Position numbers and translations under genes: made by a program
Assembly: GCA_030595835.1 (NCBI GenBank)
Contig: JAUVLG010000024.1
Location: forward strand, 1-33,945
Reading direction: 5' to 3'
Origin: Candidatus Eiseniibacteriota bacterium
GTDB lineage: Bacteria; Joyebacterota; Joyebacteria; Joyebacterales; Joyebacteraceae
DNA length: 33,945 nucleotides
In this document: piece by piece, positions 3,402 through 18,129 of the stretch
How the letters are laid out: each line of letters begins with the position of its first letter
Position numbering within the stretch: position 1 is the first letter of the stretch
The notes under the pieces: generated by a model
What the model was told of the DNA's origin: nothing
Database searches by the model: none
Seen by the model: the letters and a program-made list of their open reading frames with translations, nothing else

Positions 3402-3429
3402 CCTGGCGGTGCCCTATCAGGAGGTGAGC

Positions 3430-5151
3430 GTGAATCGAGTCGAGCGCACGGCGCTGGTCTCGGTCCTGATCAACATCGGGCTGGTCTTCCTTAAACTTTC
3501 TCTCGCGGTCCTGTCCGGGAGTCTGGCGCTCGTGGCGGATGCCTGGCACTCGGGGTCCGACGTCGTGGCCTCGGGTCTGGTGTGGACCGGGGCGCGCGTC
3601 TCTCGCCGCGAGGGTCGGGTCAATCTGGCCGTCGTCGAGAATATCGTTGGCCTCATTATCAGTGGCCTGATCCTCTGGGCCGCTGCGGGCATCTTCCGCA
3701 AGGTCTCGGCCGTCTCCGGTGCTCCCATCACAAACCTCCCGGTGGCGATCGCCGGCAGCCTCCTCGCCGCGCTTGTCTCGTACTACGCCGCCCAATACAA
3801 GATGCACGTCGGACGCGAGACGGGCAGCATCAGCCTGGTCGCCGACGGGTATCACTCCCGCATGGATACGCTGACAACTGGTGCCGTCATCGTGGGCCTC
3901 ATGGGCCACGCGATGGGCATAGAACTCGACCGCATCGCAGCGGTCGTCGTCGGCCTCTTCGTAGTTGAATCGGCCATCGTGATCGCGGCAGCGGCGGTGC
4001 GCGGGCTCCGCGACGGCACGACAGCACAGGCGGAGTCCCTCTCTGAGGTAATGCAGACGCGCCCCGCGCTGATGCTCGTGGCCGCGCTCGATCGAGTGGG
4101 CGTTCGCACGCTTCTGACGCGCGCGCGGGGAACAGCCAGGCGCCCCGGTTGGTCGAGGCGGTTCGTGTGGTCGGTGGCCGTTCTCGTGCTTGTGGTGTGG
4201 GTGCTTTCGAGCGTGTCGTTCATTGGCCCCGGTCGCGCGGGCGTCGTTATGAGATGGGGCAGGGCGCTGGACGATTGCATGACGCCCGGTGTACACCTCA
4301 AGGCGCCGTGGCCCATAGACAGAGTAACGCGTGTCGAAGTGCCGAAGGTGAGGCGTGTGGAGATAGGTTTCAGGACGCGGGAGGTCGCGCGCTCGATCAA
4401 TGCGGTAGCAGCCGAGTTCTACGCGACGCTCTGGGAGAGCCGGCACGCGGCGGGAACATACGAGAAGCTCCCCGAAGAGGCGCTCAGGCTCACCGGGGAT
4501 GAGAACATTGTGGACATGAACGTGGTGATTTTCTACCGCATCAGCGATCCAAAGGACTACCTGTTCAGGGTCGCGGAGACGGAGAACCTGATCCGGTTCT
4601 CCGCGGAGTCCGCGATAACAAGGATCGCGGGCGGCCTCGCGATCGACGACGTTGTGACCGCGCGCAGGGGCACGTTCGAGGCGTCGATACTGACGTCGGT
4701 GCAGCGGTTGCTCGACTCCTCCAATGTCGGTGTGGAGGTGATGAGCGTCAGGCTTCAGGATGTGCACCCGCCACTGGAGGTCGTTCCCGCGTTCCGGGAC
4801 GTCGCCAGCGCGAGGGAGGACAAAAGCCGCATCATCAACGAGGCGCTCGCATACATGGACGAGACCATCCCCGTGGCGCGAGGCGACGCCAGCCGTCTGA
4901 TGCTCGAGGCCGAGGGTTACAGATCGGACAGGGCGGATCGGGCGAGGGGCGACTCGGAGCGATTCAAAGACATGGCCAGGCGCTACCGCGACGCCAAGGG
5001 CGTCACCGAGACCAGGCTCTACCTCGAGACCATGGAGAGCCTTCTGGCGGGCGTCGAGAAGTACATCGTGAGCTCGGACCTCAAGCTTGAGGGGTACGAC
5101 CTCCGCGTGCTCGACAAGGAGCTCTCGTCGGGCACCGCGGTGCGAGATTAG
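3430..5151 (+). CDS. Fusion: cation diffusion facilitator membrane domain + HflK-type SPFH domain
   Basis: The 573-residue product joins two normally separate families. Residues 1-195 resemble the transmembrane part of a cation diffusion facilitator, which exports divalent metals. Both metal-site motifs are present: DAWHSGSD (His40, Asp44) and DGYHSRMD (His142, Asp146). The usual CDF cytoplasmic dimerisation domain is missing. After a linker, a transmembrane helix at about 245-262 leads into an SPFH/band-7 domain of HflK type (GPGRAGVVMRWGRAL, then PGVHLKAPWP and GDENIVDMNVVIFYRI), with a charged C-terminal helical region to the end. HflK normally forms a membrane complex with HflC that controls FtsH protease. 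I chose GTG 3430 because AGGAGG at 3419-3424 lies five bases upstream; an in-frame GTG at 3409 has no such site. hflC follows after 47 bases. Metal specificity cannot be read from sequence. Confidence 0.88.
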   Translation: MNRVERTALVSVLINIGLVFLKLSLAVLSGSLALVADAWHSGSDVVASGLVWTGARVSRREGRVNLAVVENIVGLIISGLILWAAAGIFRKVSAVSGAPITNLPVAIAGSLLAALVSYYAAQYKMHVGRETGSISLVADGYHSRMDTLTTGAVIVGLMGHAMGIELDRIAAVVVGLFVVESAIVIAAAAVRGLRDGTTAQAESLSEVMQTRPALMLVAALDRVGVRTLLTRARGTARRPGWSRRFVWSVAVLVLVVWVLSSVSFIGPGRAGVVMRWGRALDDCMTPGVHLKAPWPIDRVTRVEVPKVRRVEIGFRTREVARSINAVAAEFYATLWESRHAAGTYEKLPEEALRLTGDENIVDMNVVIFYRISDPKDYLFRVAETENLIRFSAESAITRIAGGLAIDDVVTARRGTFEASILTSVQRLLDSSNVGVEVMSVRLQDVHPPLEVVPAFRDVASAREDKSRIINEALAYMDETIPVARGDASRLMLEAEGYRSDRADRARGDSERFKDMARRYRDAKGVTETRLYLETMESLLAGVEKYIVSSDLKLEGYDLRVLDKELSSGTAVRD

Positions 5152-5198: not shown

Positions 5199-6080
5199 GT
5201 GATACGAAAAAGATACTACACGGCGGCAATCACGATCATCGCCCTGCTTGTCCTTAAGACTGCGGCCTTCGTGGTCGACGAGACTAAGATGGCGATCGTG
5301 ACGCAGTTCGGGCGTCCGGTGAGAGTCGTTGAGAGCGCCGGCCTCAACTGGAAGCTGCCGCAGCCGATCCAGTCCGTCAGGCTGTTCGACAAGCGGCTTC
5401 TGGTTTACGATCCCAAGCCGACGGAGTTCCTGACGATCGACAAGAAGAACATCGTTGTTGATACGTTCGTCGCTTGGCGGATCGCGGACCCCGAGAAGTT
5501 CCTCGAGACAGTGAACGATCGTGAGGGGGCGGAGGTGCGGATGGCGGACATCGTCGCGTCAGAGATGGGAGCGGCACTGGGCAGGTATCCGCTCCACGCG
5601 CTGATATCGATACACCCCGACTCGATGAAGGTCGCTGAGATAATGGGGGGAGTGGCACAGGGGTGCAGGACGACGGCCGAGTTGAGTTTCGGTATCGAGG
5701 TCGTCGATCTGCGGATGAAGCGTCTCGCCTTCCCGGAGCAGAACAAGCAGAGCGTCTTCGATCGGATGCGCGCCGAGCGCGAGAGGATGGCCAAGAAGTA
5801 TCGCTCTGAGGGGGAAGAGGACGCCATCAAGATTCGCGCCACGGCTGACAAGGAGCGGCAGGAGATCCTGGCCACTTCCTACATGGAGGCCGAGAAGATC
5901 CGCGGCGAGGGCGACGCGGAGGCGATGCGCATCTACGGCGCCGCCCATAGCGCGGACCCCGGGTTCTATGAATTCGTGAGGACGCTCGAGTCCTACAGGG
6001 TATTCCTCGACGACAAGACCACGATCGTACTGTCGTCCGACTCGGACCTCCTGAAACTCCTCGACAAGAAGGGGAATTGA
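5199..6080 (+). CDS. hflC: SPFH protein HflC, FtsH protease modulator
   Basis: The 293-residue protein has one N-terminal membrane helix (about residues 7-25) followed by an SPFH domain beginning VDETKMAIVTQFGRPV. It then has the long charged coiled coil typical of HflC (RMRAERERMAKKYRSEGEE and further repeats rich in Ala, Glu and Lys). The conserved tail DPGFYEFVRTLESYR and the segment TTIVLSSDSDLLKLL are characteristic of HflC. Its expected role is to form a cage with HflK in the cytoplasmic membrane around FtsH. The GTG start follows GGAGGAGGG at 5186-5194. The end overlaps the extended frame of the next gene, so the SPFH genes are probably translated from one message. No ftsH is present in the window. 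Confidence 0.93.
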   Translation: MIRKRYYTAAITIIALLVLKTAAFVVDETKMAIVTQFGRPVRVVESAGLNWKLPQPIQSVRLFDKRLLVYDPKPTEFLTIDKKNIVVDTFVAWRIADPEKFLETVNDREGAEVRMADIVASEMGAALGRYPLHALISIHPDSMKVAEIMGGVAQGCRTTAELSFGIEVVDLRMKRLAFPEQNKQSVFDRMRAERERMAKKYRSEGEEDAIKIRATADKERQEILATSYMEAEKIRGEGDAEAMRIYGAAHSADPGFYEFVRTLESYRVFLDDKTTIVLSSDSDLLKLLDKKGN

Positions 6081-6082
6081 AC

Positions 6083-7039
6083 GTGGCGGAAACGACGGTC
6101 AGATCCGACATGTCTGCCGGACTACCGAAGGTCAGAAGGTTGGCGCGATTCATCGTGCTGGTCGCCGTTGCTATGTATCTATTGTCGGGCATATATGTTG
6201 TCCAGCCGGATGAGCGCGGCGTGGTCACGAGATTCGGGAAGGTCGTGGCCGGGAACGTTCAGCCAGGCATCCACTATCGCATCCCCTGGCCGGTCGATTC
6301 GGTCTCCAGACCCCAGGTCACGGCGATCAAGCGCATGAGCATCGGATACAAGATCATCGACCAGCTGCGCGGACTGAGGCCCGAGCCACGCGAGGCCCAG
6401 TTTGTCACGGGGGACGAGAACATCATCGAGGTACAGCTCCTTATCCAGTACGTTGTCAAGGACCCGGCCAGTTTCCTCTACGCGACCGAGGATCCCCATT
6501 GGCTGGTCAGAAAGATCGGGGAGTCGGTTCTGACAGAGAAGATCGCTGTGCTGGGCGTCGATGGGCTCCTGACGACGGCGAAGATCGAGGTGGCGACCGC
6601 CGTGAAGGCGAGGTCGCAGGAGGTGCTGGACTCCTATGGCGCCGGTATGGAGATCGTGGCGGCCCACCTGCAGGAGATCAACCCGCCACGCGAGGTAGCG
6701 GACGCCTTCCGCGATGTCGCGAGCGCGCGGGAGGACAGGAGCCGCATTATCCAGGAAGCCAGGGGCTACGCGAACCGCGTCGTGCCCACGGCCCGCGGCG
6801 AGGGGCAGCGACTTGTCACCGCGGCGGAGGGATACCGGACAGAGAAGATCAAGACTGCCGAGGGTGAGTCGCACCGCTTCCGAGCCACGGTCGCGGAGTA
6901 CTGGAAGAACCCGGCGGCCGCCCGCCAGCGCCTCTACCTCGAGGTGATGGAAGAGGCGCTGTCAAGAGTGAGGAAGTACGTGGTCGACGCGGAATCCGGG
7001 GAGAAGCTCAACCTGAAATTCCTGTCGCAGAGGGACTGA
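6083..7039 (+). CDS. hflK: SPFH protein HflK (second, unfused copy)
   Basis: This 318-residue protein has a single N-terminal membrane segment (RFIVLVAVAMYLLSGIYVV), then an SPFH domain (QPDERGVVTRFGKV, PGIHYRIPWPVDSV, GDENIIEVQLLIQYVV) and a C-terminal helical region. The motif EINPPREVADAFRDVASARED closely parallels VHPPLEVVPAFRDVASARED in the fusion protein upstream, so the two HflK domains are paralogous. I prefer GTG 6083, eight or so bases after the GAAGGGG stretch at 6068-6074; a TTG at 6077 overlapping the hflC stop is also open. The order is fused HflK, HflC, HflK. Two HflK-type subunits could form alternative or mixed complexes with one HflC, which is inference. Confidence 0.92.
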   Translation: MAETTVRSDMSAGLPKVRRLARFIVLVAVAMYLLSGIYVVQPDERGVVTRFGKVVAGNVQPGIHYRIPWPVDSVSRPQVTAIKRMSIGYKIIDQLRGLRPEPREAQFVTGDENIIEVQLLIQYVVKDPASFLYATEDPHWLVRKIGESVLTEKIAVLGVDGLLTTAKIEVATAVKARSQEVLDSYGAGMEIVAAHLQEINPPREVADAFRDVASAREDRSRIIQEARGYANRVVPTARGEGQRLVTAAEGYRTEKIKTAEGESHRFRATVAEYWKNPAAARQRLYLEVMEEALSRVRKYVVDAESGEKLNLKFLSQRD

Positions 7040-7169: not shown

Positions 7170-7353
7170 GTTTTGTGGGCTTCGGTCCGTAGCCAGTTCG
7201 GGCGGTCAGCGGGGCTGCAGTTTCGACCCGCGAGCGACAATCAGTGAAAGGGCTGAGTGTTACTTGCCGGCCAAAGACAGAATTACCACAAGCGTAGCGC
7301 GGTCATAGAGACCCCGGGACCACTTCGGCACAGACGGAAGTGGCGCGGGGTTT
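7170..7353 (+). ncRNA. Candidate structured RNA: leader element or small RNA ending in a terminator-like hairpin
   Basis: No gene is seen between hflK and 7457. Downstream of the promoter the RNA could be closed by TTGTGG (from about 7173) pairing with CCACAA (about 7286-7291). Near its end, CCCCG (7312-7316) pairs with CGGGG (7346-7350) around an inner stem CCACTTC/GAAGTGG (7320-7326/7337-7343), followed by TTTAT. This resembles an intrinsic terminator or attenuator with a weak U-tract. The result could be a stand-alone RNA of about 180 bases or the regulatory part of the operon leader. I do not recognise a known riboswitch, 6S RNA, RNase P RNA or tmRNA core. Confidence 0.4.
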
Positions 7354-7355
7354 AT

Positions 7356-7430
7356 GTGTGAACATGGGCGGCGACCGCCCGGACGTTCTCGGGGGCCCGC
7401 GCAGCGCCTCCCAGGAGAAGTCCTACACAC
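7356..7430 (+). promoter_or_regulatory. Possible three-way junction in the 5' leader
   Basis: GTGTG (7356-7360) can pair with CACAC (7426-7430) and enclose two further stems. One is GGGCGG-CGA-CCGCCC (7366-7380). The other is TTCTC-GGGGG (7386-7395) with CCTCC (7407-7411) and GAGAA (7415-7419), interrupted by a CAG bulge. The structure ends 26 bases before the chosen ATG at 7457, close enough to affect translation initiation. The pairings were read by eye and have no covariation support. Confidence 0.35.
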
Positions 7431-7456
7431 CATTCCAAGCAAGGGGCCTGGCTAGG

Positions 7457-8524
7457 ATGAAAGAGGTCTTCATTGGAAGTGAGAATCTCCTGAAGCTGAT
7501 CGGGAGATGGGCGAAGGGCCACCGGGTCTACGTGCCGGTCACGTTTGATATCATGAACAACGAGGACACACCCGACTACGATCTCGTCAAGGACGAGGTC
7601 CCCGAGACGATGAAGCTCGACGGAGCGGCCCCGGCACATTCGGCCAAGCCATTCATCTTCTATCCACGCGAGGTCGTGGCCAACTACCCCAGCAGCGATG
7701 CCGAGGCCCTTGTCGAGGCTCCGTCCACGATCGTCGTCGGTCCTCGCGGCTGCGACGTCCGCGGGCTGGCTAAGTTCGACAAAGTCTACTGGAGCACCAA
7801 GCACTTCACCGAAGAGTACGACGATCCATTCGTAATCGAGAAGCGAGAGAACACATACATCGTCTCGATCGAGTGCACGGCGGCGAAAGAGACCTGCTTC
7901 TGCACGATGGTGGGCGGCAAACCGTACGCTACGGAGGGTTTCGACCTCAACCTCGCGCCGCTGGGCACGGGGTTCATCGTCACCGTCGGGTCCGATAAGG
8001 GAGAGACGTTACTCTCGGACTCGGACGACCTGCTCAGAGAGGTGACGAGCGAGCACAAGAGCGAGCGCGACAGGAACCGCGCGTCGGTGACCGAGGCGGT
8101 CGATCGCCAGAACGCACAGTTCGCGGTCGATCAGCCGTACGACAAGCGCGACCTCGCCGCGTCCGAGGACGCATGGGCGTACGTGACGCAGAACTGCGTC
8201 GGCTGCGGCGCGTGCAATCGCGTGTGCCCGACGTGCACGTGCTTCCTCCTGGTTGACCAGCGGGCGAAGGGCGGATACGAGCGGAGCCGGAATTGGGACA
8301 CGTGTCTGTCCATCGGCTATGCACGGACGGGAGGCGGGGGTAACTCACGACCCGCGCTGGCGCAGCGGTTGGAGAATAGGCTGCGCTGCAAGTTCGAGTA
8401 CTCACGCGACAGGTACAGTCTTGTAACGTGTACCGGCTGCGGCAGGTGCATCGATGCCTGTATGGGCAACATCGACATGAGGGAATCCATCAAGCACGTG
8501 GTCACGGAGAAGGCGAAGGCATGA
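7457..8524 (+). CDS. HydB/AsrA-type 4Fe-4S subunit, hydrogenase-cluster electron transfer protein
   Basis: The 355-residue protein resembles the beta subunit of archaeal sulfhydrogenase (HydB) and anaerobic sulfite reductase subunit A. It has an N-terminal domain without obvious cofactor motifs and a C-terminal two-cluster ferredoxin domain. Cluster 1 uses Cys247, 250, 253 and 257, continuing as CPTCTCF with extra cysteines 260 and 262; this CPTC-x-CF form is typical of the AsrA/HydB family. Cluster 2 uses Cys325, 328, 331 and 335. Such subunits move electrons between a flavoprotein and a catalytic subunit in the cytoplasm. ATG 7457 is chosen because family homology begins there and AAGGGG lies at 7441-7446; the frame is open further upstream into the structured leader. 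The next gene overlaps by ATGA. Confidence 0.86.
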   Translation: MKEVFIGSENLLKLIGRWAKGHRVYVPVTFDIMNNEDTPDYDLVKDEVPETMKLDGAAPAHSAKPFIFYPREVVANYPSSDAEALVEAPSTIVVGPRGCDVRGLAKFDKVYWSTKHFTEEYDDPFVIEKRENTYIVSIECTAAKETCFCTMVGGKPYATEGFDLNLAPLGTGFIVTVGSDKGETLLSDSDDLLREVTSEHKSERDRNRASVTEAVDRQNAQFAVDQPYDKRDLAASEDAWAYVTQNCVGCGACNRVCPTCTCFLLVDQRAKGGYERSRNWDTCLSIGYARTGGGGNSRPALAQRLENRLRCKFEYSRDRYSLVTCTGCGRCIDACMGNIDMRESIKHVVTEKAKA

Positions 8525-9366
8525 AGAACCTCTACAGACCGATCGAGAGTGTGATTGAGGACATCAAGGCGGAAACGCCGAACATAGCGACGTATCGTTT
8601 TCGACCGAAGGAACCCATCAGTTTCGCCGCGGGGCAGTTCGTGGAACTCACCGTCCCCGGTGTAGGCGAGGCGCCGTTCACGCCGTCCTCGAACCCGAAC
8701 GTCACCGACACGATAGAGATCACCATCATGTCGGTCGGCACGGTGACCGAGGCCCTGACGAAGATGAAGGTGGGAGACACGGTCGGGCTCAGAGGGCCTT
8801 ACGGTAACGGCTACAACATGGCGGACTTCGAGGGGAAGGAAATCCTGATCATGGGCGGCGGCGTCGGGCTCGCTCCGCTCCGATCGCTCATTCTGGCGCT
8901 CTTCGACGACGTCGAGAAATACAAGAAGATATCCATTCGCTACGGCGCACGGACTCCGGGGGACATCATCTACAAGGAGCTCCTCCCGGAGTGGGCGAAG
9001 ATGAAGAACACAGAGGTGCTGCAGACCATTGACCAGCCGCACCCGGACTGGAAGGGGACAGTTGGCGTCGTCACAGTTCTGCTCGACGATCTGCCGCTTC
9101 TGACGACCGTAGACGTTGGCAAGTTGCCATTCAATCCAGAGACAGCGGTGGCGTGCGTTTGCGGGCCGCCGATCATGCTCAAGTTCGTCAACGTCGCGCT
9201 GCTCGACAAGGGGTTCAAGCCCGAGAACATCTACCACTCGATGGAACGCAACATGAGCTGCGGGCTCGGCAAATGCGGGCACTGCATGATGGGTGAGTTC
9301 TACATTTGTAAGGATGGTCCCGTCATGACGGCGGCGCAGATTGCCGAGTTCGACGATCCGTTCTAG
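8521..9366 (+). CDS. HydG/AsrB-type FAD/NAD(P)-binding diaphorase subunit
   Basis: The 281-residue protein belongs to the ferredoxin-NADP reductase-like family that includes sulfhydrogenase gamma (HydG), AsrB and PyrK. It has an N-terminal FAD-binding barrel (AAGQFVELTVPG, then APFTPSS at the isoalloxazine site), an NAD(P)-binding motif GGGVGLAPLRSL and a CGPPIML segment. A C-terminal [2Fe-2S] site uses Cys247, 252, 255 and 263. It should exchange electrons between NAD(P)H and the adjacent iron-sulfur subunit. The start codon overlaps the stop of that gene (ATGA), so the two are translationally coupled. The open frame extends upstream, but that part lies inside the previous gene. NADH versus NADPH preference cannot be decided here. 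This is unrelated to the [FeFe]-hydrogenase maturase also called HydG. Confidence 0.9.
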   Translation: MKNLYRPIESVIEDIKAETPNIATYRFRPKEPISFAAGQFVELTVPGVGEAPFTPSSNPNVTDTIEITIMSVGTVTEALTKMKVGDTVGLRGPYGNGYNMADFEGKEILIMGGGVGLAPLRSLILALFDDVEKYKKISIRYGARTPGDIIYKELLPEWAKMKNTEVLQTIDQPHPDWKGTVGVVTVLLDDLPLLTTVDVGKLPFNPETAVACVCGPPIMLKFVNVALLDKGFKPENIYHSMERNMSCGLGKCGHCMMGEFYICKDGPVMTAAQIAEFDDPF

Positions 9367-9393
9367 CCGTTCACGCTTGAGGGGTTAAACGAA

Positions 9394-11085
9394 ATGCCAG
9401 AGATCAAAAAGGCGGCCTGTCTCTTCTGCTCCTTCCAGTGCGGCTACGCGATGGAGATGGATGCGGGGGTGCCAGTCAGGATCGACCTGGACACAGAGGC
9501 CCCGCACAATCTCGGGGCGCTATGCGCCCGGGGGCACTACAACCTGGAGCTCCTTGTCCACCCGAAACGCAATCTCGCGGCTACGGTCAACAGGCGCAGG
9601 GTTCCGTGGATGTCGGGTGTGACCAAGGTCGGGGGGAAGCTCAAAGAGATCAAGGAAGCTGACGGCGGTGACGCGCTGGGCGTGATTGTTGGCACAGAGC
9701 TCTCGAACGAGGACTACGCGGCGGCGGCAGCGTTCGCCGCGGGTACGCTCGGCACGAGGAACATCGCGGTTGCGTACGACGGGAACGACTATCCGTTTCT
9801 GATGGGAGGAGGCGGGGGAGACGCCACGCCATCCGACCTCGACGACGCCGACTGCTTCGTGCTGGTGGGCGACGTCTTCTGGGGTCACCCTTGCATCGCG
9901 AAGCGCATTCTTGAGGCCCGCTATAAGAGCAGGACCAACAGGATTTACACGATTAACCCCTACCGCAGTAACACTGACTGGTCCGCCGATCAGCACATCG
10001 TTGTGCGGCCCGGCGCCGAACCTCTTGTGCTTGCGGGTCTTCTCACGGTCATGAATGCTCAGGGCGTGCCGCGCGTGGATCTTGACTCCGCGGCCGCGGC
10101 CGGAGGTCTTGCGACCAGTGAACTCACGGCCATCGGCGAGGCGCTGAAGCAGCACGACAAGGTCGTCGTGATAGTGAGTTCAAGGCTGGGCGACTCCGCG
10201 GCGGGTTTCTTGACCGGGCAACTGGCGGCACTTCTGGCCCAGAAGGTCGGCGGCAAGTACGCTCCGCTCTTCCGCGGCGGCAACGCGATCGGTTCGCACA
10301 ACGCGATCGGTTCGACCAGAACGGTTCCCGAGCTGCTCGCGGACGTTTCCGCGGGCAAGATCAAAGGGCTTCTGGTGTTCGGCCCCGACATCCTCCAGCT
10401 GTATCCGGGTGCGGTGAACACCGACGAGCTTGAGAAGCTCCAGCTTCTTGCGGCGTCGGCCATTTTCGAGAACGATACGACGAAGCACAGCGACGTCGGG
10501 TTGCCGCTGGCGGTGTGGACCGAGATGGACGGGTCGTATACCGGGTCGCTGGGTATTGCGACCACGATGACGCCTTTGACGGACGCGCAGGGAGACGCGC
10601 GCTCGACAGGTGAGATGCTGACCGATATTGCCGGCGAGATGGGCCAGGGGCTGTCCGCCGGGGTCTCTCCTGCGGAGCATCCTGAGCTTCCGATCGACGC
10701 CCAGGCCGAACTGGACAGGATAGCCGGAGAGTCGACAGGAGAGGGTGTTGTGCTCATAGAGGGCATCAACCCACTCCACCGCTGGGACGGGACCATCACG
10801 GGCAGAATGAGTTTCCCGAAGGTGATCTCTCCCTACTGTGATATCTGGATCGGCGAAGAGATAGCGGGGAGTCTCGGCGTAGAGGCGGGGTCCAACGTGG
10901 CTCTGGCGACTGAGCGTGGCGAGACGACGATAATCGCGACCGTTACTGACAGGATGCCCGGCGGGCTCGTTGCGATTCCGAGCTACGTGCCGGACGTCAG
11001 AGGACTCTTGGCGTGGACGCTCAATCCTGCCACAAAGTGGTACGACGTGGCGGCTTCGGGCGCGAAGGTGACACCGGGAACATAG
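9394..11085 (+). CDS. Molybdopterin oxidoreductase-fold subunit, NuoG/FdhA-like
   Basis: The 563-residue protein begins with a [4Fe-4S] site of molybdopterin oxidoreductases (Cys9, 12, 16 and 44, in CLFCSFQC and CARG) and ends with a molydopterin-dinucleotide-binding-type beta-barrel domain (AGSLGVEAGSNVALATERG). It is shorter than formate dehydrogenases of about 700 residues or more. Where a catalytic Cys or Sec is expected, around residues 125-145, the sequence reads AYDGNDYPFLMGGGGGD, with no Cys, Sec (TGA) or obvious Ser ligand. It may therefore be a structural electron-transfer subunit like NuoG in complex I, not a formate dehydrogenase. An 18-base in-frame tandem repeat gives NAIGSHNAIGST at 10282-10317. 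It lies 27 bases after the diaphorase gene. Cofactor content and substrate are uncertain. Confidence 0.8.
   Translation: MPEIKKAACLFCSFQCGYAMEMDAGVPVRIDLDTEAPHNLGALCARGHYNLELLVHPKRNLAATVNRRRVPWMSGVTKVGGKLKEIKEADGGDALGVIVGTELSNEDYAAAAAFAAGTLGTRNIAVAYDGNDYPFLMGGGGGDATPSDLDDADCFVLVGDVFWGHPCIAKRILEARYKSRTNRIYTINPYRSNTDWSADQHIVVRPGAEPLVLAGLLTVMNAQGVPRVDLDSAAAAGGLATSELTAIGEALKQHDKVVVIVSSRLGDSAAGFLTGQLAALLAQKVGGKYAPLFRGGNAIGSHNAIGSTRTVPELLADVSAGKIKGLLVFGPDILQLYPGAVNTDELEKLQLLAASAIFENDTTKHSDVGLPLAVWTEMDGSYTGSLGIATTMTPLTDAQGDARSTGEMLTDIAGEMGQGLSAGVSPAEHPELPIDAQAELDRIAGESTGEGVVLIEGINPLHRWDGTITGRMSFPKVISPYCDIWIGEEIAGSLGVEAGSNVALATERGETTIIATVTDRMPGGLVAIPSYVPDVRGLLAWTLNPATKWYDVAASGAKVTPGT
10282..10317 (+). 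repeat. 18-bp tandem duplication inside the molybdopterin-fold gene
   Basis: Two adjacent 18-base units share their first 15 bases (AACGCGATCGGTTCG) and differ only in the last three (CAC, then ACC). The frame is kept and the protein gains a doubled NAIGS(H/T) segment. Confidence 0.85.
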
Positions 11086-11158
11086 GCGATTACCTGAGGA
11101 GACCTCGCGGAGGTACAATGCCCGAGGTCGACGTGGCACCATCCTACGGGAGAGCTGG

Positions 11159-11641
11159 ATGAACAAAAGAAACGTCCTCGACTACGGGCGCTGCATTGGT
11201 TGTAGGAGCTGCATCGCGGCCTGCTACTACTCGCACAACTTCCAGGATCAGCTCGAGTCCTCCACCGTAGTAACCAACGCCGTGCTGCAGATGAACTGCC
11301 GGCATTGCGAACAACCACTGTGTGAGGCGGCGTGTCCCCAGGGAGCCATCAAGAGGCGGGACGACGGGCTGGTCATCAGGAGCACTATCTTGTGCAGTGG
11401 CTGCACGTCGTGCGCTCAGGCGTGTCCGTTCGGCGCGATCGATTTGGAGCGAACGCGTCACCACATGCCGAAATGTGATTTGTGTGACTGGCGCACCCTT
11501 GAGGGCAAGGACACGATGTGCGCGACCACATGTGTCTCGGGCGCGAGAACATTCGAGGACGTGAGCGACATCGAGGCCCAGAGAGGGACGCCGATGAGGG
11601 GCAGCCGCGCGATCGCCAGGACGTGGCGGGGGAAGCGGTAG
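11159..11641 (+). CDS. Four-cluster [4Fe-4S] ferredoxin, FdhB/HycB/CooF-type
   Basis: The 160-residue protein contains sixteen cysteines arranged for four [4Fe-4S] clusters: 12/15/18/22, 47/50/55/59, 79/82/85/89 and 106/109/121/125. This is the layout of HycB, CooF and the beta subunits of membrane formate dehydrogenases, which form a wire between a catalytic subunit and another partner. Its place between the molybdopterin-fold gene and the hydrogenase membrane subunit suggests it joins the soluble input module to the hydrogenase core. No signal peptide is seen, so it should be cytoplasmic. The ATG follows a GGGAGAG stretch at 11148-11154. Confidence 0.92.
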   Translation: MNKRNVLDYGRCIGCRSCIAACYYSHNFQDQLESSTVVTNAVLQMNCRHCEQPLCEAACPQGAIKRRDDGLVIRSTILCSGCTSCAQACPFGAIDLERTRHHMPKCDLCDWRTLEGKDTMCATTCVSGARTFEDVSDIEAQRGTPMRGSRAIARTWRGKR

Positions 11642-11699
11642 GACCTTCAAGACCGCGAGCGATTACCTGCGCGCTGTCAAAGCAAGAGAGGTAGCATAA

Positions 11700-12638
11700 A
11701 TGGCATCGACACTTGGCTTGGTTCTGAACTTCCTCATTTTTCCGGGCCTTTTGTTCACTGCGATCGTCGGGCTCCTTACGCAGTGGGTCGACAGGAAGGT
11801 GAGCGCCAGGGTCCAGTGGAGGGTTGGCCCACCGTGGTACCAGCCGTTCGCGGACATCCTCAAGCTCCTCGGGAAGGAGATACTCATCCCCGAGGGAGCC
11901 GGGCGCACGGGATTCCTGTTTGCCCCGCTGGCTGGTCTGGCGGCGGTTGGGGTGGTGTCGACGATGCTGTGGCTGGCCAACATCCAGGGAGGCGGATTCG
12001 TCGGCGACCTGATCGGCGTTCTCTACCTGCTGACGATCCCTTCGCTGGGCATGATCATCGGAGCGGCGGCGTCCGGCAACCCGCTCGCCAGTGTCGGCGC
12101 GAGCCGCGAGATGAAGCTCGTGCTCGCGTACGAACTCCCGTTTATCATTGCCATCTTCACGGCCGTGACCAAGGTCTCGCCGATGACACTGAGACTGGAC
12201 GGGATTCTCGATTACCAGGCAGTGAACGGCGTCCTTCTGGGAAACGCTTCCTGTATTATCGCGTTCATCGTCGCCATCCTCTGTGCGCAGGCGAAGCTGA
12301 CGTATCCGCCGTTCGATGTTCCCGAGGCGGACACTGAACTCATGGACGGCACGCACATGGAGTACTCTGGCGCTGCGCTGGCCGTCGTCAAGCTGTCCCA
12401 GGCCATGATGCTCTTCACGCTCCCGATCTTCTTCATCACCATCTTCTGGGGCGGGATCGTTCTGACGGGCTGGGGCATTCTTTACACCATCATCAAGTAC
12501 GTGATCATCGTCACGATAATCGTTCTCATAAAGAACACGAATCCAAGGGTGAGGATCGACCAGGCCGTCAGGTTCTTCTGGGGTCCGGTCACGGTTCTCG
12601 CGATCATCGGCATGGTGCTCGCGATGGTCGGTCTCTAA
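11700..12638 (+). CDS. Hydrogenase membrane anchor, NuoH/HycD/MbhM-type
   Basis: The 312-residue protein is very hydrophobic, with about eight predicted membrane helices. It has the conserved NuoH-family cytoplasmic loop WVDRKVSARVQWRVGP followed by PFADILKLLGKE, and a second loop PFDVPEADTELMDG with the acidic residues typical of this family. In complex I and group 4 hydrogenases this subunit anchors the peripheral arm and begins the path coupling electron transfer to ion movement. It sits directly upstream of the small, NuoC-like and large hydrogenase subunits, so it belongs to the hydrogenase core. Confidence 0.94.
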   Translation: MASTLGLVLNFLIFPGLLFTAIVGLLTQWVDRKVSARVQWRVGPPWYQPFADILKLLGKEILIPEGAGRTGFLFAPLAGLAAVGVVSTMLWLANIQGGGFVGDLIGVLYLLTIPSLGMIIGAAASGNPLASVGASREMKLVLAYELPFIIAIFTAVTKVSPMTLRLDGILDYQAVNGVLLGNASCIIAFIVAILCAQAKLTYPPFDVPEADTELMDGTHMEYSGAALAVVKLSQAMMLFTLPIFFITIFWGGIVLTGWGILYTIIKYVIIVTIIVLIKNTNPRVRIDQAVRFFWGPVTVLAIIGMVLAMVGL

Positions 12639-12662
12639 GGGGTCAATACGGAGCGCAAGCAC

Positions 12663-13076
12663 ATGGGTGCTACCAGCTGGGGATTCAAGAAGTCGCTGTG
12701 GGTGTTTCACCTGAACGCCGGTGCGTGTAACAACTGCGACATCGAGGTGTTGGACTGCCTGACTCCCAGATTCGACATTGAGCGTTTCGGTATGAAGCTC
12801 GTGGGGAGCGTCAAGCACGCCGACGTGTTGCTGGTCTCGGGCTTCGTTTCCCGGAAGGTGCTGCCGGACGTCATCGAGACCTACGAGCAGGCGCCGAAGC
12901 CCGTGGCGGTTGTGGCGCTGGGGGCGTGTGGTTGCACGGGGGGGATCTTCAGGGACGGCTACAACTTCGCAGGACCGGTGGACAAGGTGATCCCGGTCGA
13001 CGCGTACATCCCCGGATGTCCGCCGCGGCCGGAAGCGATTATTGATGGGATCGTGAAGCTCATGGGGAAGCTCTAG
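12663..13076 (+). CDS. [NiFe] hydrogenase small subunit, NuoB/HycG/MbhJ-type
   Basis: The 137-residue protein holds the single proximal [4Fe-4S] cluster next to the [NiFe] site. Candidate ligands are Cys22 and Cys25 (GACNNCDIE), Cys89 (or the nearby Cys91, GACGCTGG) and Cys119 (IPGCPPRPE). These motifs define the NuoB/group 4 hydrogenase small-subunit family, and the length is normal for a minimal member. No twin-arginine signal is present, so the subunit faces the cytoplasm, as in other energy-converting hydrogenases. The NuoC-like gene follows after 71 bases. Confidence 0.95.
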   Translation: MGATSWGFKKSLWVFHLNAGACNNCDIEVLDCLTPRFDIERFGMKLVGSVKHADVLLVSGFVSRKVLPDVIETYEQAPKPVAVVALGACGCTGGIFRDGYNFAGPVDKVIPVDAYIPGCPPRPEAIIDGIVKLMGKL

Positions 13077-13147
13077 ACCTGGGACGGGTCCCGAGACGAC
13101 CGTGGGAGAGGGCCTCAACGCCCGGATGCCCAGGGAGTGGAGAGACA

Positions 13148-13576
13148 ATGAGCAAACAGGTAATCGAGAATCTTAGGACCAAATTCGGCGACCGTGTCGA
13201 TATCTACGAGCACAACGACCGCCGGGCGTATGTAACGGTCAGCAATGAGGACTGGATGGAGGTCCTCCGCTACATGTACGAGGTGGAGGGGGGCAGGCTG
13301 ACCACGGCGACCGGGAGCGACAGGTCGACAGGAGTGGAGCTTCTCTACCACTTCGCGATTGATGCCGACAGTATCGTCGTGAACATACGAACAACTCTCA
13401 AGAAGCCGTTCCCGAAGATCGAGTCGCTGACTCCACACTACTACGCTGCAGATTTCATCGAGAGAGAGATCTTTGATTTCCTTGGAGTCGAATTCGAGGG
13501 GCACCCGGACCCGAGGAAGATCCTCTCCTCACACGACAGACCCGCGGATTTCCACCCAATGAGGAGAGACGAATAG
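13148..13576 (+). CDS. Hydrogenase accessory subunit, NuoC/MbhK-type (30 kDa family)
   Basis: The 142-residue protein matches the NuoC/30-kDa family through its central beta structure and the motif DFIEREIFDFLGVEFEGHPD, followed by RPADFHPMRRDE near the end. It has no cofactor motifs and normally scaffolds the large subunit. In some hydrogenases, such as HycE, it is fused to the large subunit; here it is separate, as in Mbh. The next gene begins at the first base after its stop, and GGAGAG lies just upstream of its own ATG. Confidence 0.92.
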   Translation: MSKQVIENLRTKFGDRVDIYEHNDRRAYVTVSNEDWMEVLRYMYEVEGGRLTTATGSDRSTGVELLYHFAIDADSIVVNIRTTLKKPFPKIESLTPHYYAADFIEREIFDFLGVEFEGHPDPRKILSSHDRPADFHPMRRDE

Positions 13577-14749
13577 ATGAGCACGATAATACCCATTGGT
13601 CCGTTCCATCCCGTACTTGAGGAGCCGGAGTACATCCAGCTCTACGTGGACGGGGAGACCGTGGAGAAGGCCGAGATCGACCTCGGCCGGATCCACCGTG
13701 GGATGGAACTGCTCGCGCAGGAGAAGACGTTCGACCAGGATGTCTTCCTCGTCGAGCGTATTTGTGGCATCTGCTCCGCCTCGCACAGTTGGGCAGCCAG
13801 CCTGGCGATGGAGGACATCGTCGGCGTTGGACCTACTGATCGGGCGCGCTATCTCAGGACGATCGTGCACGAGCTGGAGCGGCTTCACAGCCACATGCTC
13901 TGGGTGGGATTGGCCGGACACATCCTCGGGTATTGGACAGTCTTCATGTGGGGATGGAAGTACCGCGAGCCGGTTCTCGATGCGCTCGAGATGATCACGG
14001 GGAACAGACAGAACTACGCGTGGTACAAAGCCGGTGGTGTGCGGAGGGACGTGGCGGATGATATCTGGCCCGAGGTTGTCAAGATCATCGATGAGTTCGA
14101 CAAGAACAATGACATCCTGATAGGCGCTTTTCTCGACGACCCGGTGATTCACGGCCGGCTCAAAGGCGTGGGCGTCCTCACGAAGGAGGAGGCGATCCAC
14201 TACGGTTGCCTCGGTCCGACGGCACGAGGCTCCGGCGTTGACATCGACGTCCGCAGGGACCACGACTACGGCGCCTACTCCGAGGTCGACTGGAACGTTA
14301 TCACGCAGCCCGAAGGAGACTGCATGGCCGTTTCCGTCGTCAGGCTTCTCGAGATGAAGGAAGCATGCAAGATCATCAAGCAGTGCATCGCGAAGCTGCC
14401 GGGCGGACCCATCGCGACGGAGATACGCGAGTTCCCGCGCGGTGAGGGTATCGGTCACATTGAGGCGCCGCGCGGAGAGAGCTTCCACTTCATTCGGAGC
14501 AACGGCACGAACATGCCCGAGCGCCACAAGATGCGCGCGCCGACCTTCCTCAATATCCCGTCGTTCAGACCGAGGGTCAAGGGCGAGACGATCTCGGATG
14601 CGGTTCTCATCTTCGCGATTATCGACCCGTGCTACAGCTGCACGGAGCGCATGGCGGTTCTGGATCCGACCGGGCAGTCGCTCATGACCGGTAAGGATCT
14701 GATCAAGTTGAGTCACGAGAAGACAGAGAAGCTCAAAAGGGAATACTAG
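13577..14749 (+). CDS. Group 4 [NiFe] hydrogenase large (catalytic) subunit, HycE/MbhL-type
   Basis: The 390-residue protein carries the two CxxC motifs that bind the Ni-Fe centre: RICGICSASHS near the N-terminus (Cys63, Cys66) and DPCYSCTER near the C-terminus (Cys352, Cys355). Complex I NuoD has lost these cysteines, so this is a hydrogenase and not a complex I subunit. It should produce or oxidise H2 at the cytoplasmic side of the membrane. About 35 residues follow the second motif, and no typical protease-cleaved C-terminal histidine extension is seen; group 4 members vary in this. No hyp maturation genes are in the window, so they must lie elsewhere. Overall resemblance is to Mbh/Mfh-type enzymes; the exact subgroup needs a tree. 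Confidence 0.95.
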   Translation: MSTIIPIGPFHPVLEEPEYIQLYVDGETVEKAEIDLGRIHRGMELLAQEKTFDQDVFLVERICGICSASHSWAASLAMEDIVGVGPTDRARYLRTIVHELERLHSHMLWVGLAGHILGYWTVFMWGWKYREPVLDALEMITGNRQNYAWYKAGGVRRDVADDIWPEVVKIIDEFDKNNDILIGAFLDDPVIHGRLKGVGVLTKEEAIHYGCLGPTARGSGVDIDVRRDHDYGAYSEVDWNVITQPEGDCMAVSVVRLLEMKEACKIIKQCIAKLPGGPIATEIREFPRGEGIGHIEAPRGESFHFIRSNGTNMPERHKMRAPTFLNIPSFRPRVKGETISDAVLIFAIIDPCYSCTERMAVLDPTGQSLMTGKDLIKLSHEKTEKLKREY

Positions 14750-14767
14750 AGGTCCGGGGGTAAGTCG

Positions 14768-16660
14768 ATGTCACAGCTACTCATTCCCATTATCGTCCCC
14801 GCGATTGCCGGCGGCCTCTGTCTCTTGATACCGAGGCGGGTGAAGGCCGTCAGAGAGGTGCTCACGCTCGCCGGGCTCGCGTGGGCGTTCGTGGCCGCGC
14901 TGCAGCTGTTCGGTCAGTGGCCTCTCTCTTTCACCAGAGACTGGGTGATGTTCGGGGACATGTCGGTCCAGTTCGACCTGGTCCTCAGCCATTTCAGCGC
15001 ATTCGTGCTCGTGTTTGTGGGGTTCTTCGGGTTGGGCGTGGCCCTGTATTCGATGTCGTGGCTCTCAAAGGAGCACGACGGCCGGCGTTACTACGCGTAC
15101 CTCCTGTGGACCATCGCGGCGAGCGCGGGTGCGGTGCTCTCGAACAACCTACTCCTGCTCCTGATCTTCTGGGAGGCGCTGACCGCGATTCTCTTCTTCT
15201 TCGTCAACACCGGACGGAAAGAACGGGATGCGGCGGACGGCGCGGCCAAGAGCTTCGTCATGCTCGGCCTGTCGGACGCGGCGTTGTTCCTGGCGATCGC
15301 GTTCATCTGGGTGCGATTCGGCACTCTATCAATGGACCAGCTATCGATCTTCGTGGGCGACGGCGCGACCATCTCCATCTATGTTTTGATGATGATCGGC
15401 GCCATCACCAAAGCCGGTGCGATGCCGTTTCACACGTGGGTGCCGGCGCTCGGTAAGGGCGCGCCGACCCCCGTTATGGCGCTTCTCCCGGCCTCCATCG
15501 ACAAGCTCCTCGGCATCTACCTGCTGGCCCGCCTGAGCCTCGACATCTTCAACATCGGGCCCGGCATGCAGCTTCTCCTCATGATCATCGGAGCCGTGAC
15601 CATCCTGGGCGCCGTGCTCATGGCGCTCGTCCAGCACGATCTCAAGGTGTTGCTGTCTTATCACGCCGTCAGCCAGGTGGGTTACATGGTGCTTGGCATC
15701 GGCACAGGCGTTCCCATCGGCATAGCCGGCGGCCTCTTCCACATGCTCAACAACGCCATCTACAAGACGTGCCTGTTCTTCGGCGCCGGCGCTATCGAGA
15801 AGCAGACCGGCACGACAGAGATCTCCAAGTTGGGTGGTCTGGCAAAGGCGATGCCGCTGACGTTCATCAGCATGGCCATCGCATCGCTCGCCATTTCCGG
15901 TGTGCCACCCTTCAACGGGTTCGTCTCGAAATGGATGGTCTACTCGGGTCTCGTCGAGCTCGGCTCGAGGGGTATGAGTTACTACTGGATATTCTTGGTT
16001 GCGGCGTTCTTCGGCAGCGCTCTGACCATGGCATCGTTTGTGAAGGTGTTGTACTCCGGCTTCCTGGGGCAGCGTCTCAGCAAGTTCGCGCAGGTGCGAG
16101 AGGCGCGGTGGCCGATGACGGTCCCGATGTTGGTCCTGGCGGCGCTCTGCATTGTCTTCGGCGTGTGGGCGAAGTTCCCCCTCGACACGTTCATCAATCC
16201 GATAGTTCCTGGCGCGGCTGCGACGGCCGCATCGGGAGCGATCGACGTCTCCGTTGGATTCTGGAACCCCAGTCTGGCCACAGGGCTCATTATTCTCGGC
16301 ATTCTCGTCGGGCTGGGCGTCTTCGGCATCGGCAAGCTGTCGACTCGCCGCGTCGCGCACGTCTTCATTGGTGGACGGAAGCCCCCCGATCCGATCGACT
16401 CGATGCACGTCACCGGGACCGGGTTCTACAACACCATCAAGGAAACGAAGGGCCTGCGCAGCGTGTTCGCAAACGCGGAGCAGCGGATCTTCGATGTCTA
16501 CGAGATGGGCGGTCGCCTCGGCAATGTGTTCGTTCAGAGCCTGCGGTCGGTGCACAATGGCGTGCTCTCGACCTATCTGGCTTGGGCGGTCATCGGGCTG
16601 GGGGCGATAATCTTCGCGCTCCTGAGCGCGCTCCTCAGACAGCTGGCCGGGGGGCGCTAG
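14768..16660 (+). CDS. NuoL/MrpA/HyfB-type antiporter-like membrane subunit
   Basis: The 630-residue protein is a proton-conducting-transporter family member with about 14 or more membrane helices. Key features are the glutamate in LLIFWEALTAILFF, the lysine in AITKAGAMPFHTWVPALGKG, and PASIDKLLGIYLLARL, matching the charged residues of the ion channel in NuoL, NuoM and MrpA. The last 100 or so residues (after FIGGRKPPDPIDS) form a polar stretch and a final membrane helix, similar to C-terminal extensions in NuoL/HyfB proteins. P. furiosus Mbh is known for only one such subunit; this cluster has a second (18130-19665), so the ion-pumping module is larger. Confidence 0.93.
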   Translation: MSQLLIPIIVPAIAGGLCLLIPRRVKAVREVLTLAGLAWAFVAALQLFGQWPLSFTRDWVMFGDMSVQFDLVLSHFSAFVLVFVGFFGLGVALYSMSWLSKEHDGRRYYAYLLWTIAASAGAVLSNNLLLLLIFWEALTAILFFFVNTGRKERDAADGAAKSFVMLGLSDAALFLAIAFIWVRFGTLSMDQLSIFVGDGATISIYVLMMIGAITKAGAMPFHTWVPALGKGAPTPVMALLPASIDKLLGIYLLARLSLDIFNIGPGMQLLLMIIGAVTILGAVLMALVQHDLKVLLSYHAVSQVGYMVLGIGTGVPIGIAGGLFHMLNNAIYKTCLFFGAGAIEKQTGTTEISKLGGLAKAMPLTFISMAIASLAISGVPPFNGFVSKWMVYSGLVELGSRGMSYYWIFLVAAFFGSALTMASFVKVLYSGFLGQRLSKFAQVREARWPMTVPMLVLAALCIVFGVWAKFPLDTFINPIVPGAAATAASGAIDVSVGFWNPSLATGLIILGILVGLGVFGIGKLSTRRVAHVFIGGRKPPDPIDSMHVTGTGFYNTIKETKGLRSVFANAEQRIFDVYEMGGRLGNVFVQSLRSVHNGVLSTYLAWAVIGLGAIIFALLSALLRQLAGGR

Positions 16661-16772
16661 GCGGGAGGGCGGTCGTCGGAACAAGGAGCATCGCAGGAGT
16701 AGGGAGTCCGGAGTTCCGCATCAATAGATTCGGTCTAGAGGTCTGGATTGAGGACAGGCGGGAGACGAGTTA

Positions 16773-17330
16773 ATGGAAAACATTGCTCCACAGCTCTACA
16801 CACTTCTCGTCTTTATGGTGATAGGGTCGATCGTCGCCGTGGAGACGAAGAATCTGCTGTCCGCCGTGATCTCGGTGAGTGCGGTCGGGTTCGCGCTGTC
16901 TGTCGCGTTCCTGCTAATGGGGGCGCCCGACATCGCGATCACACAGCTGGTTGTCGAGGTTCTCGTTCTCATTATCCTGATTCGAGGAACGATTCTTCTC
17001 GACAATACGGCGGTCGAGACGCACACGGACACGCTGGCGGTGGTTGCGTCGCTCGTCTTCTTCGGGTTGCTCCTGGGTTTTGGGGCGATGATCTTTGGGA
17101 GCAGGGGCTTCCCTGAGTTCGGTGAGCCGTTGATGCGAGTGTCAAGGGTCTATGTTCAAACGGGACTCCCGGCGACCTACGCCGCCAACATCGTGACGTC
17201 GATCATTCTTGACTTCAGGGCCTACGACACCCTGGGCGAGGCGTCGGTTCTCTTTGCGTCCGTTCTGGGGGCGCTCGCGCTCCTCAGGAAGGACGGCAAG
17301 GTGAAGAGAGAGGAGGAGGCGGCCGCATGA
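16773..17330 (+). CDS. Fused MbhD-MbhE-like subunit (C-terminal part of MrpA)
   Basis: The 185-residue membrane protein combines two short families that are separate genes in archaeal Mbh operons. Residues 1-75 match the MbhD/DUF4040 type (MGAPDIAITQLVVEVLVLI), and the C-terminal part matches MbhE/MrpA-tail proteins (NIVTSIILDFRAYDTLGEA, then VLFASVLGALALLRK). In MrpA both lie at the end of the long polypeptide, and here they form their own gene after the NuoL-like subunit. GGGAG precedes the ATG. The 112-base gap before it shows no other gene. It overlaps the next gene by ATGA. Confidence 0.9.
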   Translation: MENIAPQLYTLLVFMVIGSIVAVETKNLLSAVISVSAVGFALSVAFLLMGAPDIAITQLVVEVLVLIILIRGTILLDNTAVETHTDTLAVVASLVFFGLLLGFGAMIFGSRGFPEFGEPLMRVSRVYVQTGLPATYAANIVTSIILDFRAYDTLGEASVLFASVLGALALLRKDGKVKREEEAAA

Positions 17331-17782
17331 AAGGCATGACGCTGATCGTTAAAACGATTACCGACTTCGTGGTCGCTTTCATTGTGGTGTTCGGCGCCTA
17401 CATCGTGCTCTACGGGCACCTGACTCCTGGAGGCGGGTTTGCGGGTGGCGTCATCATTGCGTGTGCCTTCATCCTGCTCATGCTGGCGCACGGCAGTGAT
17501 GCGGCGTTCGCGATACTGCCCGCGAAAGTGGCCCACATCCTCGACTCCGCGGGCGCCCTGGCGTTCCTGATTATCGGATGGATAGGAATGACGGGTGGCT
17601 TCTTCTTCTTGAACGTGTTCGGTAGGGGAGAGATGTTCAGGCTCCTGAGTTCCGGGATGATACTCCCGCTGAACATCGCTATCGCCTTCAAGGTTGGTAG
17701 TTCGCTCTTCCTGGTGTTCGCCGCGCTCGCGATGTTCCGGCGCCGGTCGTTCAGAGCGATGATCGAGGAGGAACTGTCATGA
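17327..17782 (+). CDS. mnhB: Na+/H+ antiporter subunit MnhB/MrpB (MbhF-like)
   Basis: The 151-residue protein has four likely membrane helices and the MrpB signature around GHLTPGGGFAGGVIIACAF. In Mrp antiporters and Mbh hydrogenases this small subunit is part of the sodium-translocation unit. It overlaps its neighbours at both ends by ATGA, consistent with strict co-translation in the antiporter module. Confidence 0.94.
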   Translation: MKGMTLIVKTITDFVVAFIVVFGAYIVLYGHLTPGGGFAGGVIIACAFILLMLAHGSDAAFAILPAKVAHILDSAGALAFLIIGWIGMTGGFFFLNVFGRGEMFRLLSSGMILPLNIAIAFKVGSSLFLVFAALAMFRRRSFRAMIEEELS

Positions 17783-18126
17783 CCGTCTATTTCCTGTGCG
17801 CAGTCCTTCTCACAATGGGGCTCTACTGCCTGGTGGCGAAGAAGAACATCGTGAAGAAGATCATCGGTGTCGTGATCATGGATTACGCCGTTAACCTCTA
17901 CCTTATCATCATAGGGTACAAGAAGGGCGGCGTTGCCCCGATCATCGACAAGACCACCAACCCGGAGCTCCTCGAGCGATTCGTGGACCCGCTGCCGCAG
18001 GCGCTCGTTCTCACATCGATCGTCATTGGACTTGGCGTCTTGGCGCTCATGGTCTCCATGGTCATCCGTCTCTACGAGAAGCACGGAACCTTTGACATGT
18101 CACAGATCAGCAAGCTGAGGGGATAG
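17779..18126 (+). CDS. mnhC: Antiporter subunit MnhC/MrpC (NuoK-like, MbhG)
   Basis: The 115-residue, three-helix membrane protein belongs to the NuoK/MrpC family. Typical features are the N-terminal helix followed by GLYCLVAKKNIVKKIIGV, a loop with VDPLPQALVLTSIVIGLG, and a third helix. The family connects the antiporter-like subunits to the rest of the membrane arm. Its start overlaps the mnhB stop; mnhD starts three bases after its end. Confidence 0.94.
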   Translation: MTVYFLCAVLLTMGLYCLVAKKNIVKKIIGVVIMDYAVNLYLIIIGYKKGGVAPIIDKTTNPELLERFVDPLPQALVLTSIVIGLGVLALMVSMVIRLYEKHGTFDMSQISKLRG

Positions 18127-18129
18127 CCA

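Follow-up and report, generated by a model that had tools for sequence, protein, structure and literature searches.

What would a protein do that is a metal exporter at one end and an HflK-type scaffold protein at the other? The question is raised by a gene in a stretch of 33,945 nucleotides from a Candidatus Eiseniibacteriota bacterium (contig JAUVLG010000024.1, here called the window). The initial annotation, made from the sequence alone, described it as one unbroken frame joining a cation diffusion facilitator (CDF)-like half to a full HflK, and profile searches bear this out. The frame 3430-5151 has no internal stop, and its product of 573 residues matched both Pfam families expected from that description: Cation_efflux (PF01545) over residues 9-193 (E=8.9e-25; 88.1 bits against a cut-off of 26.6) and Band_7 (PF01145) over residues 265-471 (E=2.0e-21; 77.3 bits against 23.6). 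The NCBIfam models for hflK (TIGR01933, 222.6 bits against 159.4) and for the CDF superfamily (TIGR01297, 92.2 bits against 82.35) were likewise exceeded. As a CDF, the fusion has profile scores above cut-off, six helices and the residues of the tetrahedral metal site in helices 2 and 5, but it lacks the usual cytoplasmic C-terminal domain, ZT_dimer, for which Pfam gave no match at E<=1. As an HflK, it scores above the TIGR01933 and Band_7 cut-offs and has hflC adjacent (5199-6080), but it does not group with canonical HflK in the tree. Each part of the fusion belongs to a known family; the swapping of exporters within a fixed cassette is described below. Our favored answer, which we hold to be rather probable, is that the cassette encodes a dedicated SPFH platform that clusters heavy-metal exporters, in which the fusion of the window would be the exporter subunit beside HflC and an exporter-free HflK.

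Features of the fusion gene and its cassette in the window
Feature	Position	Strand	Evidence
Shine-Dalgarno-like AGGAGGT, 4 bases 5' of GTG 3430	3419..3425	+	read from sequence
CDF-HflK fusion gene, 573 aa	3430..5151	+	single open frame; GTG start; profile matches
CDF transmembrane domain, six helices, aa 9-193	3454..4008	+	Pfam PF01545; AF2 helices; Foldseek YiiP
Metal site, helix 2: H40-S-G-S-D44	3547..3561	+	H40, D44 invariant in alignment A1
Metal site, helix 5: H142-S-R-M-D146	3853..3867	+	H142, D146 invariant in alignment A1
K/R-rich linker from helix 6 to helix 7, predicted cytoplasmic	4015..4164	+	charge count; ZT_dimer absent
Helix 7, HflK-type membrane anchor	4165..4227	+	hydropathy peak at about aa 249-265; AF2 helix 239-264
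SPFH/Band_7 domain, predicted periplasmic	4222..4842	+	Pfam PF01145; Foldseek HflK match
W335-E-S-R-H339 motif, SPFH loop	4432..4446	+	WxxxH counts in tree set
hflC of cassette, 293 aa	5199..6080	+	TIGR01932, 215.1 bits against cut-off 134.4
Second, exporter-free hflK	6083..7039	+	TIGR01933, 236.4 bits against 159.4; clades with other cassette second HflKs

The AF2 model of the fusion has six helices (3-195), a linker, a further helix (239-264) and an SPFH fold, at a modest mean pLDDT of 57, with most of the CDF half at about 70-87. Searched against the PDB with Foldseek, the HflK half matched the HflK structure 9cz2 (E=1.8e-9) and the CDF half matched YiiP (8f6k; E=1.7e-5, rmsd 3.4 Å). The initial annotation had proposed a six-helix CDF half with both HSxxD motifs, and had named an N-terminal part of some other fold as evidence against its reading; the six modeled helices, the residues H40-D44 and H142-D146 and the match to YiiP all agree with a CDF.

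The arrangement of the two halves across the membrane was less well anticipated. The C-terminus of CDF transporters is cytoplasmic, and although ZT_dimer is usual there, some CDFs do without it. HflK enters the membrane from the cytoplasmic side and has its SPFH part outside. About 50 residues separate helix 6 from helix 7 of the fusion, and the linker (aa 193-245) contains 10 K or R residues, compared with 2 for all predicted outer loops, three in number, combined. Since the positive-inside count agrees with the known orientations of both families, the C-terminus of the exporter should lie inside and the SPFH part in the periplasm, reached across the membrane via the positively charged linker and helix 7. 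The suggestion that HflK replaces the CDF cytoplasmic domain is thus misleading: ZT_dimer is missing, and the SPFH part is predicted on the opposite, periplasmic side. Given the topology indicated by helix 7 of the AF2 model and by the charge count, we reject a reading in which SPFH sits where that domain would be.

Is the fusion real, and how widespread is it? Of the 20 genomes sampled from the window's phylum, 17 contain it in one frame (E<=1e-92, with the match spanning the SPFH part), and full-length fusion frames were seen for most of those 17. Another genome of this phylum, G006, has a degenerate copy only (L155, 5995-8829), in which both CDF metal sites are gone and the SPFH part is strongly diverged, and the cassette was not found in two of the 20 (G008 and G017). 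Full-length fusions also occur in families f36, f25, f135, f215, f75, f202, f189, f149, f210 and f253, which belong to other phyla because all sampled genomes of the window's phylum come from one family; the phyla of G116, G103 and G043, which were searched, are distinct from that of the window and from each other. Identity among the fusions is 80-85% within the genus, about 58-65% at the level of the family and 31-42% for other lineages. Besides the 17 genomes of the phylum, the architecture is thus present in about ten further families, and independent genomes have the same single frame, not the two separate genes that would have told against the initial annotation. An assembly join or frame artefact is ruled out by this recurrence, and a lone fusion confined to one lineage is ruled out by the other families and phyla and by a plasmid of Aquibium.

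The fusion is the first gene of a cassette, followed by hflC and by a second, exporter-free hflK, for which the start is listed as TTG at 6077, with GTG at 6083 equally likely. HflC and then HflK follow, in exactly this order, in 38 of the 40 non-redundant fusions that have at least 2.3 kb of downstream sequence. One exception is the degenerate copy of G006, whose final gene has a weak score; the other is L157, an additional copy in G382. The genome of the window has a separate canonical hflKC pair on another contig (C2), and many other carriers possess an additional stand-alone HflK.

In other genomes the N-terminal part of the same cassette is a Cu/Zn efflux permease of the SO_0444 family, for which the four copies scanned scored 348-363 bits (cut-off 300), or a P1B heavy-metal ATPase (TIGR01525, 591-613 bits against 346), so that three unrelated exporter families occupy one slot across several phyla. 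The permease copies keep CSC, and the P1B copies keep CPC and DKTGT, with TGES as well where the sequence is complete. P1B and CDF versions occur together in one genome in G283 (L154 and L153) and in G389 (L196 and L195), where the contig end lies too close to L195 to show HflC and the second HflK. In families f98 and f85, both of the SO_0444 type, an extra HflC-like gene and a formamidase/acetamidase gene (FmdA_AmdA) lie upstream of the cassette (L156, 2958-4989; L158, 8639-10713).

Phylogenetic trees separate three groups of HflK: exporter-HflK (support 93/89, which is good but below the strict threshold), second HflK (98/94) and canonical HflK (97/93). Truncated cassette members were relabeled or excluded and not counted as canonical, and an earlier HflK tree gave a similar grouping. 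The P1B fusions form one group (100/100), as do the SO_0444 fusions (99/76), while the CDF fusions need two changes; the subgroups of second HflKs broadly mirror, by eye, those of the exporter-HflKs. In a tree of CDF domains, the fused ones fall on one side of a branch from the stand-alone CDFs (98/92). On the simplest reading of these sequences the cassette would have arisen once, with exporters replaced later, the root of the tree not being fixed by the data.

These results bear on the proposal of the initial annotation that metal export is coupled to the HflKC-FtsH quality-control machinery. The exporter-HflK would then join or modify FtsH-HflKC, and FtsH would degrade the exporter or be steered by metal status. 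Canonical HflK/C does enclose FtsH (PMC12048511), and the SPFH part of the fusion scores as an HflK. However, an HflC and a second HflK come with the cassette itself, the three groups of HflK fall into distinct clades, a canonical HflK of its own is retained by most genomes, and no ftsH was seen in the part of the cassette neighborhoods that was scanned. We therefore consider this coupling unlikely. A link between metal export and a scaffold of HflK/C type is nevertheless supported by the cassette, by the exporter swapping and by the metal-related neighborhood of the Aquibium copy; its assignment to the canonical machine appears incomplete, since the fusion belongs to a paralogous clade of its own, accompanied by a separate HflC and second HflK.

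Could the CDF half have ceased to pump and instead sense metal and control the scaffold? The His and Asp residues of both metal sites are invariant in an alignment of 14 fusions (A1), and both sites are kept in nearly all fusions of the wider set, which argues against such a sensor. Damage is seen in G006 (both sites), in G364 (loss of the helix-2 His) and in G290 (helix-5 D to N), and the persistence of the cassette or its remnants with these three fusions is what speaks for sensing. Against it, P1B ATPase and Cu/Zn permease parts with intact motifs take the same position, and the fusion is the only CDF in several genomes: the search turned up no other in the genome of the window (98.5% complete), nor in G237, G264, G290 and G389, and both CDF matches of G235 lie inside the fusion. 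A sensor appears to us distinctly improbable. An SPFH loop carries a further motif, WESRH in the window, that characterizes those HflKs of the tree set whose exporter is a CDF or a P1B ATPase. There, WxxxH is present in 20/21 CDF fusions and 3/4 P1B fusions, in 0/8 SO_0444 fusions, and among exporter-free proteins in 0/29 second HflKs and 0/14 canonical HflKs. The Aquibium fusion lacks it, so the motif is not universal.

The genes around the cassette differ between lineages. On a conjugative plasmid of the cultured Aquibium oceanicum B7 (L273, NZ_CP018172.1 6000-32000), the CDF-HflK, HflC and HflK genes lie in a copper and heavy-metal resistance region. Their neighbors are a two-component system, with a response regulator and an ATP-binding protein of the sensor type, and genes for a heavy-metal P-type ATPase, PCu(A)C chaperones, SCO, CopC, CopD and Nramp. 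Plasmid records covering most of the query numbered one for the window query and one for the Aquibium query; plasmid matches from Tistrella, Azospirillum and Methylophaga proved to be ordinary hflK-hflC pairs without an exporter. In the window, the cassette lies beside gyrA and a hydrogenase/complex-I-like cluster, with no metal genes. That cluster (7340-19665, plus strand) comprises ferredoxin, FAD/NAD-binding, molybdopterin-type, NADHdh, 49-kDa/NiFe-hydrogenase-like and antiporter-like genes and is a system of the membrane-bound hydrogenase or complex-I-like kind. Searches for RNA and tRNA genes across the window found nothing.

In six lineages (f25, f75, f149, f184, f135 and the Meg22 bin; loci L144, L146, L147, L152, L203 and L018), the cassette, whether whole or truncated at a contig end, is near NifX/ORP-like (Nitro_FeMo-Co), MinD/Mrp-ferredoxin, MrpORP, DUF5320 or NifU_N genes. 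Such neighbors possibly link the cassette to metal-cluster biogenesis, MrpORP being an Fe-S cluster carrier (PMC6345978). They are one line of support for a chamber in which exporters would concentrate metal in a periplasmic space enclosed by the dome, so as to store it, form minerals or supply cofactors and not to detoxify. The domes of SPFH cages are closed or nearly so (PMC12048511), and the best-scoring CDF equivalog for the fusion is MamB, yet far below its cut-off. However, a shared anaerobic lifestyle could explain the association of these genes as well, and the Aquibium copy lies within an ordinary copper/heavy-metal resistance region; a metal-loading role seems to us quite doubtful. 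That the join merely ties together the expression of two unrelated functions, as gene fusions can be neutral, is hardly credible when three unrelated metal exporters take the same position in the same cassette in several phyla.

We return to the dedicated metal-efflux platform. Its argument is built on the domains and their folds, the metal sites conserved in most members, the conservation of the fusion and of the gene order, the exporter swapping, the separate clades, the genomes in which the fusion is the only CDF, the metal-resistance setting in Aquibium and the positive-inside count. Against it stand the damaged metal sites of G006, G364 and G290, the missing cassette in G008 and G017, the non-metal neighbors in the window, the modest confidence of the AF2 model and the support of 93/89 for the exporter-HflK clade. 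We infer the topology, hetero-assembly, stoichiometry, transport activity, direction and metal of such a platform as follows. The cassette would yield an exporter-bearing HflK (here with a CDF), an HflC and an exporter-free HflK. The exporter would end in the cytoplasm and be connected by the short positive linker and one helix to a periplasmic SPFH part. The three proteins would build an HflK/C-like ring or dome in which HflC alternates with both kinds of HflK, so that exporters would be held close together and in fixed number around or under the dome. They would take a divalent or soft metal (of the Zn, Cu, Cd or Fe class) out of the cytoplasm and release it at the dome. In E. coli, FtsH is surrounded by a periplasmic cage of 24 subunits in which HflK alternates with HflC (PMC12048511). 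Given that each cassette has two HflKs of which one bears an exporter, a ring with exporters at some of the HflK positions would be plausible. A more specific version, in which a CDF, SO_0444 or P1B exporter would occupy every second HflK position of the periplasmic dome of a modular chamber and discharge metal into the enclosed space, is a possibility that we put forward tentatively.

The roles of bacterial SPFH complexes beyond FtsH regulation are poorly known. With a fixed scaffold and three swapped exporters, one SPFH lineage gains a client that is specific and can be tested; since the exporters swap within a fixed cassette, the function of the SPFH complex becomes directly testable, as does the question of whether SPFH domes directly organize transporters. 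There is also a correction to be made in annotation. The public record of the Aquibium fusion reads solely 'FtsH protease activity modulator HflK', and under such a name the metal exporter can readily escape notice in a genome that has no other CDF. A scaffold dedicated to metal efflux is apparently undescribed so far: a search confined largely to the open-access literature gave no description of the fusion or the cassette, which is no proof of novelty.

Among known systems, E. coli FtsH-HflKC shares with the fusion the SPFH domain, the single anchoring helix and the adjacent hflC, and by sequence and fold the closest solved structures are those of HflK. Unlike canonical HflK, the fusion has an N-terminal metal exporter and a second HflK in its operon, and it falls in a separate clade. 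With the CDFs (YiiP/FieF, ZnT and MamB) it has in common the six-helix membrane domain and the HxxxD/HxxxD site; unlike them it is without ZT_dimer, and the fused CDFs group apart from the stand-alone ones. The SO_0444 Cu/Zn transporter and the P1B ATPases are the exporters of related cassettes, in place of which the member in the window bears a CDF. A scaffolded efflux platform is known from Mycobacterium tuberculosis: PacL1/CtpC, where a scaffold protein keeps P1B exporters in membrane platforms (PMC9374683). PacL1, however, is a small DUF1490 protein that is neither of the SPFH type nor fused to its exporter, and its foci are independent of flotillin (PMC9374683).
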